A stretch of DNA of 64,000 bases from Faecalicoccus acidiformans (GTDB lineage: Bacteria > Bacillota_I > Bacilli_A > Erysipelotrichales > Erysipelotrichaceae). The position numbers and the translations under genes are program-made. Shown here one piece after another: positions 42,234-46,917 of the stretch (within the stretch, counting starts at the first letter, position 1; each line of letters begins with the position of its first letter). A model generated the notes under the pieces. That model did no database searches and was not told the DNA's origin. It saw nothing but the letters and a program-made list of their open reading frames with translations. The stretch spans positions 1 through 64,000 of the forward strand of contig NZ_JACHHD010000010.1 of the NCBI RefSeq assembly GCF_014202635.1, read 5' to 3'.

Positions 42234-42262
42234 ATTATAATAGGATTTCAATAATCAATCAA
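42234..42262 (-). promoter_or_regulatory. mreCD promoter
   Basis: TTGATT (42257-42262) and TATAAT (42234-42239) are exactly 17 nt apart. The -35 overlaps the left copy of the 9-bp direct repeat that flanks cassette 42268-43094. Confidence 0.68.
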
Positions 42263-42377
42263 TCGAGTTCTATACTGAAAAAATCGGAGGATGAAATTTT
42301 TTTGAGTTTTAAATAAGCCTTTGTTTATCGAACTTTTAGAAACTTTCTTCGATTTTGACTTTTTTCAACACTCAAAA

Positions 42378-42410
42378 GAAAAACCTAGTAGAATTACGTT
42401 TCCACTAGGT
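42378..42410 (-). terminator. Terminator of the 36-residue gene
   Basis: The stem ACCTAGT/ACTAGGT (42383-42410) has a partly paired interior and is followed by a T-tract on the minus strand. Confidence 0.7.
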
Positions 42411-42440
42411 ATATTTTAATTTGTCTTTTAAATATAGTGC

Positions 42441-42551
42441 TTAAACACCTTTTTCTAAATTAGGATTTTTTGATAGGTATAACTCAATACCCTTATTAAT
42501 ACCGTTTCCTAATTCTTTTCTTATTTCTTCATATTCTTGTAGTATGCTCAT
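42441..42551 (-). CDS. Small hypothetical protein, 36 residues
   Basis: The short reading frame begins MSILQEYEEIRKELG and ends LEKGV, is rich in charged helix-forming residues, and has AAAGGA 9 nt before the ATG. A terminator follows its stop. It lies inside cassette A downstream of the SRPBCC gene, after a weak terminator. The function is unknown. The good SD and its own terminator are the evidence that it is real. Confidence 0.6.
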   Translation of the reverse strand: MSILQEYEEIRKELGNGINKGIELYLSKNPNLEKGV

Positions 42552-42576
42552 TAAATCACATCCTTTCATTAGAGCA

Positions 42577-42602
42577 TAAAAAAAACCAACTATTATAAGT
42601 TG
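42577..42602 (-). terminator. Weak terminator after the SRPBCC gene
   Basis: A 5-bp stem (CAACT/AGTTG, 42587-42602) is followed by a long T-tract (42577-42585) on the minus strand. Confidence 0.5.
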
Positions 42603-42623
42603 ATCTACTCGATAAATTATAAT

Positions 42624-43022
42624 TTATTTCTCTAATATTCTTTTCAAATCCATAATAAACTGTGCTTGCTGTTTTTTTAAATATGATTTTACAAACGGCT
42701 TCATATAGAATTTCTTTGCTATTACCTGTTCTGTAAAATCAATCTCCGTTTTATCGCCTATGGAAGTGAAAATGCCAACCCAATGTCCTTTCATATTGCT
42801 ATTTTCCATATCAAATTCCCAGCGCTTATGCGGTTCTACAACAGTGATAGTAAAAGTGGTGGGATAGCCGTTTTTGGTATATTCAATAAATTGTTCTTCA
42901 TTTATTACTTCCGTTTTACTTAAATCACTTCGCCATTGAGTATATTTATCAACAGCTAAAACAGTTTCCCAAACTTTATGAATATTACTATCAATGCTGT
43001 CTTTTATATTTGAAATTGTCAT
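42624..43022 (-). CDS. SRPBCC (START/Bet v1-like) family protein
   Basis: The 132-residue protein fits the helix-grip SRPBCC fold that binds hydrophobic small molecules: VWETVLAVDKYTQWRSDLSK at the N-terminus, a beta-sheet middle (VVEPHKRWEFDME), and a long C-terminal helix. The ligand is unknown. The ATG at 43022 follows AGAGGAAG; a TTG upstream in frame would overlap the SD. It is an accessory gene in cassette A, with a palindrome over its -10. Confidence 0.8.
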   Translation of the reverse strand: MTISNIKDSIDSNIHKVWETVLAVDKYTQWRSDLSKTEVINEEQFIEYTKNGYPTTFTITVVEPHKRWEFDMENSNMKGHWVGIFTSIGDKTEIDFTEQVIAKKFYMKPFVKSYLKKQQAQFIMDLKRILEK

Positions 43023-43050
43023 TTTTGCACTTCCTCTCAAATTCCAATTT

Positions 43051-43087
43051 ATAAAGATATTATATCTTTATCCCTAACTAATTACAG
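43051..43087 (-). promoter_or_regulatory. Promoter and palindromic operator of the SRPBCC gene
   Basis: A perfect TATAAT (43059-43064) lies at the centre of a 21-bp palindrome (10-bp arms 43051-43060 and 43062-43071 around one base). A weak -35 CTGTAA (43082-43087) is 17 nt upstream and lies within the right terminal repeat of the cassette. Confidence 0.65.
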
Positions 43088-43094
43088 TATATAC

Positions 43095-43769
43095 TCAATC
43101 GAGATATTGATGTTGCTTAAAGGAAAACCAGGCATTTTTTCCAACAATGATATGATCCAATAATGGAATTCCCGTCATCTTCCCCACCTCTTGAACACAT
43201 CTCGTAAACTCTATATCTTGTGAAGAAGGAGTAGGATCTCCGCTAGGATGGTTATGGATCATAATTAAAGCATTCGCATGATAAAGATAGGCATCATGAT
43301 AGATTTCACGAGGATGAGCACAACTTTCAGTTAAAGTACCGACAAAGAGTAATTGATGATGGATGATCTTCCCTTTTGCGTTTAAATAAACACACACAAA
43401 ATGCTCTTGAAAACAAGGGCCGATCTCCAATTGAAACCATTTCACCAAATCATCCGGCTGATAGACCGAAGCTTGATAATTCTTTCTTTGAAGGGCTCGT
43501 CGACATAGTTCTATTCCCGTTAAAATCTGCAGTGCTTTTACTTGTTTAATCCCCTTAATTTCCATCAACTCTTCCAAACGTAAATCAAAGAGTCGGTTAA
43601 GATTCTCAGAAAGGTCCAAAACTTCTTCGGCCAAATCAAAAACACTCTTTTCTCGATTTCCGCTTTGCAGCAACAAGCATAAGATCTCCAAATCACTCAA
43701 ATAATGCAGACCATAACGAATCGCTTTTTCGCGCGGCCTTAGATTCATACTCATCTCTTTTACCTTCAT
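43095..43769 (-). CDS. radC: RadC family JAB-domain protein
   Basis: The 224-residue protein has an N-terminal helix-hairpin-helix region (LMEIKGIKQVKALQ) and a C-terminal metallo-JAB domain with HNHPSGDPTPSSQD, the HxH...SxxD metal site. Despite the name, a role in DNA repair is not established. Start choice is uncertain: ATGs at 43769, 43754 and 43748 are in frame, and AAGGT fits the second. radC next to mre genes is a common Bacillota order. Confidence 0.9.
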   Translation of the reverse strand: MKVKEMSMNLRPREKAIRYGLHYLSDLEILCLLLQSGNREKSVFDLAEEVLDLSENLNRLFDLRLEELMEIKGIKQVKALQILTGIELCRRALQRKNYQASVYQPDDLVKWFQLEIGPCFQEHFVCVYLNAKGKIIHHQLLFVGTLTESCAHPREIYHDAYLYHANALIMIHNHPSGDPTPSSQDIEFTRCVQEVGKMTGIPLLDHIIVGKNAWFSFKQHQYLD

Positions 43770-45930: not shown

Positions 45931-46068
45931 TTTTTTATTATACTCTTTTTTTATGAAGGTGTATACAGAACTAAAAAACGAACTGTACTAGTGAATTGGG
46001 GAGATTGCACTTTTTTAGTAATTTGACAAGATAATATTTTTATGTATTAGCTATAACACCTGCTTTCA

Positions 46069-46097
46069 TTGTAGATGATACTGAACAGAGGTATAAT
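46069..46097 (+). promoter_or_regulatory. Promoter of the flavin reductase gene
   Basis: TTGTAG (46069-46074) and a perfect TATAAT (46092-46097) are 17 nt apart. From 46092 to 46118 the sequence matches the SRPBCC leader at 25 of 27 positions. Confidence 0.75.
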
Positions 46098-46133
46098 ATT
46101 TTTATAAATTGGAAGTTGTAGAGAGGTGTCGCA

Positions 46134-46781
46134 ATGAAAATAGAGATTGGGAAAGATTTTCCGCAGTATTTCAAATCCTCATATCCAGAAGAATTTGAAT
46201 TGTTTTCACATTTTGAAGTAACCGCCGGAATACCAACGGTTTTATTTGCAATTACCACATGGAAAGAAAACAGAAAGCCTAATGTATGCTTCCACGCATG
46301 GAGTTGTTTTCATGGTGATAAAACAGCTTTCTTTGCTGTTATGGGAAATCTTTATCAACACACTCATACTTATGCAAATATCCAAAGGGAAAAGTGCTTT
46401 TGTATCAATTTTCTTCCAATAAGTTACTATGATAAATTAGTAGATACCATTAACCATAACGACTACGAAGCTGATGAATTTTCAGTAGGGAAATTTGCGC
46501 TTATAAATGCCAAGACCATTCATGCCCCTATGATACAGGAGGCATTTATAAATATGGAGTGTACTTTGAAAGAAACGCAGGATTTAAGCGGAGCAGGCAT
46601 TACTTCAATGATTATCGGGCAAGTACAGCATATTTCCGTCGAAGAAGAATACGCACGGGGCTATAAAAAACGATATGGAAAAGACGGATTTATGATGTTA
46701 GTCCCTGCCCCACAAGACTTAAAAACAGGAGAGCCTAATCAATCAGCGATTGCTACGACAAATATTGAAAAGTATGACTGA
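46134..46781 (+). CDS. Flavin reductase-like domain protein
   Basis: The 215-residue protein belongs to the FMN-binding split-barrel flavin reductase-like family: an N-terminal barrel start (EVTAGIPTVLFAITTWKENRKPNVCFHAWSCF), REKCFCINFLP, and an insert region with GITSMIIGQVQHI. It may be a flavin reductase or an FMN protein with another role. AGAGG lies before the ATG. It is the only gene of cassette B and is on the opposite strand from its neighbours. Confidence 0.85.
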   Translation: MKIEIGKDFPQYFKSSYPEEFELFSHFEVTAGIPTVLFAITTWKENRKPNVCFHAWSCFHGDKTAFFAVMGNLYQHTHTYANIQREKCFCINFLPISYYDKLVDTINHNDYEADEFSVGKFALINAKTIHAPMIQEAFINMECTLKETQDLSGAGITSMIIGQVQHISVEEEYARGYKKRYGKDGFMMLVPAPQDLKTGEPNQSAIATTNIEKYD

Positions 46782-46889
46782 TAAATCCTAATTTTCCCAT
46801 CCATTTTGGATTTTTCCTTAGATAACAGCATAAATAAAGGAGAAAATGAAATTTCCCTGACTCTCATCTCCTCAATTTAATAGTACAGT

Positions 46890-46917
46890 TAAAAAACGAC
46901 TAGAAAATCTAGTCGTT
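46890..46917 (-). terminator. Terminator of the atp operon, containing the atpC stop codon
   Basis: A perfect 10-bp stem (46895-46904 with 46908-46917) is followed by a T-tract on the minus strand. The atpC TAG (46909-46911) is inside the first arm. The T-tract is one copy of the cassette B direct repeat. Confidence 0.9.

Follow-up and report, generated by a model that had tools for sequence, protein, structure and literature searches.

A transposase-less unit in the atpC terminator

In Faecalicoccus acidiformans a short segment with a single gene, encoding a flavin-reductase-like protein, adjoins the terminator of atpC, which raises the question of how this gene came to be there and whether the sequence that carries it can also carry others. 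We analysed a stretch of 64,000 nucleotides (contig NZ_JACHHD010000010.1, positions 1 to 64,000; referred to as the window), of which the relevant features are listed in the table below. An initial annotation, made from the sequence alone, had described a 910-bp core with 25-bp inverted repeats and directly flanking 8-bp direct repeats, and this structure was recovered. The unit (45981-46890) lies between two copies of AAAAAACG, a repeat that belongs to the T-tract of the atpC terminator, and its terminal inverted repeats match at 22 of the 25 positions (88% complementary), whereas 15 shuffled versions of the 1.5-kb region gave top scores of only 17-19/25 for a spaced inverted repeat of 25 nt. 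The flavin-reductase gene is complete (E 5e-11 for the domain) and is the only sizeable plus-strand open reading frame in the unit, in the orientation opposite to that of the HAD gene and atpC; as already noted in the annotation, a transposase gene is absent. A simple scan found no close -35 match for the TATAAT box in the left end. As the stem of the atpC terminator is intact, the hairpin still has a T-tract next to it after the target duplication, in line with the earlier proposal that the terminator had been rebuilt upon insertion.

Table. Features of the two cassettes in the window (coordinates are those of the window)
Feature	Coordinates	Strand	Remark
Left target-site duplication AAAAAACG	45973..45980	.	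Directly outside left end; single copy in congeners
Left terminal inverted repeat AACTGTACTAGTGAATTGGGGAGAT	45981..46005	+	
Conserved left end	45981..46117	+	Alignable over ~115-140 bp with other cassettes; TATAAT box at 46092-46097
5' slot-border motif AAATTGGAAGTT (consensus AAATYNNARTTT)	46106..46117	+	
Passenger gene: 215-aa flavin-reductase-like protein (PF01613)	46134..46781	+	
3' slot-border motif AAATCCTAATTT	46783..46794	+	Similarity to Enterococcus copies stops here
Conserved right end	46795..46890	+	Common to cassettes with other passengers; alignable over ~110 bp
Right terminal inverted repeat AACTGTACTATTAAATTGAGGAGAT	46866..46890	-	Read on minus strand
Right target-site duplication AAAAAACG	46891..46898	.	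Part of atpC terminator T-tract
atpC intrinsic terminator stem, terminator-like, intact	46895..46917	-	Beside right repeat
Second cassette, related end type CTATACTGAAAAAATCGG	42268..43094	-	Abuts radC stop codon
Passenger of second cassette: SRPBCC/polyketide-cyclase-like protein (PF10604)	42624..43022	-	
9-bp target duplication CTCGATTGA, copy next to radC	43095..43103	.	
9-bp target duplication CTCGATTGA, other copy	42259..42267	.	

The annotation had also read the structure as the result of a recent transposition and had proposed a search for empty sites in related genomes. Such sites were found: two genomes of the same genus have an uninterrupted atpC site with a single target and nothing inserted (ACATAAAAAACGACTAGAAGCTCTAGTCG in G001 and TAATAAAAAAACGACTAG in G003). 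Moreover, the second of these, Faecalicoccus pleomorphus DSM 20574, contains the 910-bp unit at another locus (C7:7137-8046), with a single mismatch (at 46197 of the window) and between flanks that are unrelated to the atpC locus and contain TTTTCCT repeats, a 7-bp (or shifted 8-bp) duplication. Since the atpC flanks of the two species are only 69% identical, one mismatch over the whole unit at an unrelated locus points to recent movement between species. These comparisons show that the unit recently entered the terminator T-tract of atpC, duplicating 8 bp of the target, and that it was recently transposed horizontally between Faecalicoccus species, in one direction or the other.

Units with the same and with related ends

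The exact ends of the unit recur at other loci (G000:C21, G003:C4 and G002:C66). At G003:C4 both ends surround a DUF1697 gene, here with no target duplication. A left end with the 3' part of hsdS was found on G000:C17 and a right end with the 5' part of hsdS on G000:C21; the outer flanks (AATGCTCC and AACGCTCC, respectively) suggest that the two are one hsdS-bearing unit split in assembly. This unit has the opposite orientation, with its join at AAAGCCCGATTT. Models of the ends, searched in the family and the order, further recovered a remnant left end in another genus (G109; E 5e-8).

A second, related type of end (TTCTATACTG..., TTCTATACTGAAAAAATCGGGTGAT) has 15 of 25 positions in common with the first and bounds transposase-less units of one to four genes at six loci: G000:C18 (four genes), G000:C3, G003:C8, G002:C8, G002:C31 (cut by the contig end) and the second cassette of the window. 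Four of these units are flanked by 8-9-bp duplications (TAAAGTGGA, CTCGATTGA, CATTATTG and TGATATGAA/TGATATTAA, the last with one mismatch), and some of the targets adjoin terminators. The second cassette (42259-43103 with its duplications) was overlooked in the initial annotation, as was the exchangeable cargo slot treated below. Its 9-bp duplication takes in the radC stop codon, and a possible open reading frame of 36 aa follows the SRPBCC gene.

The flanks of the 910-bp unit are AT-rich, and an ordinary acquired gene that happens to lie between inverted and direct repeats of chance origin might look similar. This explanation is refuted, and retains practically no probability, in view of the unit-length copy elsewhere, the empty sites, the recurrent ends and the shuffled sequences. 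Mobile insertion cassettes are known, among which those of the MIC231 type in the Bacillus cereus group, and that label, chosen in the annotation, remains a fair working description of what was found: inverted repeats of the IS type, an 8-bp target duplication (lacking in one sister copy) and a passenger that is not accompanied by a transposase.

A 12-bp border motif delimits the cargo

We collected 34 border sites, which yielded the consensus AAATYNNARTTT, with a variable centre. The complete units of the second type begin with the left end and a TATAAT box; the gene or genes follow, with the motif on either side, and a right-end module with a hairpin closes the unit. Copies of one gene that are found in different backbones lose their homology at the motif. 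The BLAST similarity between the 910-bp cassette and two Enterococcus plasmids is confined to positions 122-814 of the query, with a motif at either limit; the Enterococcus homologue of the flavin reductase has about 90-91% amino acid identity. On these plasmids the gene (L130 5725-6700; L131 5725-6700) is absent from the PLSDB gene table, and the gene immediately before it has the annotation ribosomal protein L7/L12. G035 has, on two contigs, the flavin reductase gene and a second gene in this order, with a motif before, between and after them. The CPBP and methyltransferase genes were each found in two contexts that diverge at the motif; the CPBP gene, for instance, is part of G000:C18 and also of a conjugative-element region on G003:C37, and the upstream sequences of the two differ from the motif outwards.

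Of the 16 cassette genes, 8 have the strict core of the motif no more than 50 bp upstream (1 of 138 control genes) and 7 have it no more than 50 bp downstream (again 1 of 138 controls), although the odds of this enrichment are overstated because the cassette genes were partly collected via the motif. A looser 20-bp form gave ~13 matches in 116 genomes versus 5 in the reversed control, a mild enrichment that makes the motif alone a weak predictor; the exact 20-bp form had no match in viral contigs, nor in phages. The motif was not found in a run of similar genes in Enterococcus gallinarum, and therefore such gene runs are by themselves not diagnostic.

The motif is short and AT-rich, and it lies directly 5' of the ribosome-binding sites of most genes. 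It is also found upstream of hsdS in the ordinary hsdM-hsdS order of a type I restriction operon, and part of its conservation could therefore be regulatory. One could accordingly think of ordinary mobile insertion cassettes that obtained their passengers via rare illegitimate recombination, the motif being a conserved leader before ribosome-binding sites and not a recombination site, the more so as no recombinase was tied to it. We consider this unlikely, because the motif is present 3' of the last gene as well, where a leader is needless, and because homology breaks at the motif in several independent backbones, among which a pair of an empty and a filled site. A side observation concerns a type I restriction locus of G000 that contains several hsdS copies with a tyrosine recombinase between them (L105, G000:C22, 436-2615; L108, G000:C25, 1-662): it is probably phase-variable, and the motif AAATTCGGATTTGTAGGG precedes its hsdS genes.

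Empty and filled slots in Tn916-like elements

The right-end module (ACAATTTCATATCC and hairpin) was also found in Tn916-like elements of Enterococcus, Clostridioides difficile and Vescimonas. Three Enterococcus plasmids (L206, L211 and L212) have a common sequence up to AAATYCCAGTTTG after the trimethoprim-resistance gene dfrF, followed by three different continuations. The slot is empty in CP033739, where the terminator module directly follows the dfrF motif, and filled in AP026581, where ~0.77 kb (SRPBCC, TfoX) is inserted at the motif after dfrF; in CP065930 other genes start from the same motif point. Between C. difficile CP149680 and Vescimonas AP023416 the slot gene differs and the flanks are 92-95% identical. 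As far as alignments go, these comparisons show that Tn916-like elements contain a slot border of the same kind, together with the terminator-side module of the second cassette type, and carry dfrF and other genes as cargo.

Search for the parent transposase

The annotation had also suggested to search the ends for the matching transposase. Its two tests came out in its favour: related genomes have a clean empty site with a single target, and the ends turn up elsewhere around different passengers, as described above. No transposase with matching ends was recovered with end patterns in the family, with end models in the family and the order, or in the genome, viral and plasmid collections. The search covered up to 316 genomes in which contigs below 3 kb were masked (the short contigs of G000 and G003 read as N), and the parent transposase may be hidden in those contigs, where collapsed IS copies usually sit.

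Duplications of 8-9 bp fit transposases of the IS1595 or IS256 type. Transposases of these types and of the DUF6431-rve-AAA type are present near some of the cassette loci, so that the cassettes might be derived from an IS1595, IS256 or DUF6431-rve-AAA (Tn5053-like) element in the family and have gained passengers. The copies examined have no terminal inverted repeats in common with the cassettes. The one end seen of the IS256-like element in G003:C4 (GATAGCATAAAATATC) differs, as do the ends of the IS1595 copy in G003:C37, which is merely inserted in the CPBP cargo gene. The IS1595-like gene of G080 comes without a second end, and its single end match adjoins cas1 and looks fortuitous. The DUF6431-rve-AAA element of G025 and G137 has TGTAGMGCGTC ends with duplications of 5-8 bp, and in G025 it begins ~100 bp inside the CTATACTG end. 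Such a derivation, which we hold to be very improbable in general, is refuted for the copies seen. Apart from this, we noted that the IS1595-type transposase fragment in the CPBP gene of the conjugative-element region occupies L116 (G003:C37) 1-600, and that the DUF6431-rve-AAA insertion element measures 3321 bp and has seven nearly identical copies in G137:C1 (L194-L200).

A probable transposon chassis with exchangeable cargo

The region is probably a non-autonomous DNA transposon of the mobile-insertion-cassette type, with cargo that is exchanged at the motif AAATYNNARTTT. A transposase encoded elsewhere would recognise both ends and act in trans. The left end would supply a promoter-like box and stop at the motif, to be followed by one or more genes that lack promoters of their own, the motif again, and the right end; the cargo would then be expressed from the left end. 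Recombination at the motif, for which the breakpoints are visible and the recombinase is putative, would exchange the cargo and so allow one transposon chassis to carry different genes. Transposition of the chassis in trans and cargo exchange at the motif would together act much like an integron on a transposon. Several observations count against this reading: no transposase with such ends among the sequences searched, the irregular duplication at G003:C7 and the missing one at G003:C4, the opposite orientation of the hsdS unit, a short AT-rich motif to which no recombinase was tied, and a TATAAT box that lacks a close -35 match in the simple scan. We guess that a border of this kind, nearly palindromic around a variable centre, could serve a recombinase of the tyrosine or serine type; homologous recombination between the short borders, or template switching, could also have exchanged the cargo.

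Most of what is known about integrons comes from Gram-negative bacteria. The cassettes resemble them in the shared promoter end, the mostly uniform gene orientation, the arrays of up to four genes, the short recurrent site between genes and the pairs of empty and filled sites, and sequence comparison places the genes at one fixed position downstream of a common promoter. Unlike in integrons, the complete elements hold only passenger open reading frames and no integrase, and attI and attC are absent, as judged from the border, the site being a 12-bp AT-rich near-palindrome that flanks each gene. As regards layout and empty/filled behaviour the element works like an integron platform; with no integrase inside it and no attC, it is not an integron. 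With the Tn916-family conjugative elements the Faecalicoccus cassettes share a border motif of the same kind and the terminator-side module around MGMT, dfrF, TfoX and other genes; they differ from these elements in having transposon ends and no conjugation genes. The qnrD cassettes are mobile insertion cassettes (PMC3913671) and, as far as the features outlined for such cassettes (MIC231, qnrD) go, the units discussed here agree with them in the IS-like inverted repeats, the passenger gene, the missing transposase and the target duplication, and differ in that no IS with matching ends was found, in the long conserved subterminal ends and in the exchange of cargo at a fixed 12-bp border. No description of the motif or the platform was found in the literature at the level of titles and abstracts, and on that basis we provisionally regard both as novel.

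The 910-bp unit may thus be part of a general gene-swapping platform. More tentatively, with a chance that we put at somewhat below even, the Bacillota could possess a second, integron-like gene-cassette system, in which a putative site-specific recombinase inserts and exchanges genes that lack a promoter and have AAATYNNARTTT at their borders, with transposase-less transposons and Tn916-like conjugative elements among its platforms and dfrF as one of its cassettes. If so, a fixed-site platform on small transposons and conjugative elements in gut Bacillota would help to explain the spread of single accessory genes, including dfrF, between Erysipelotrichaceae, Enterococcus and Clostridia.
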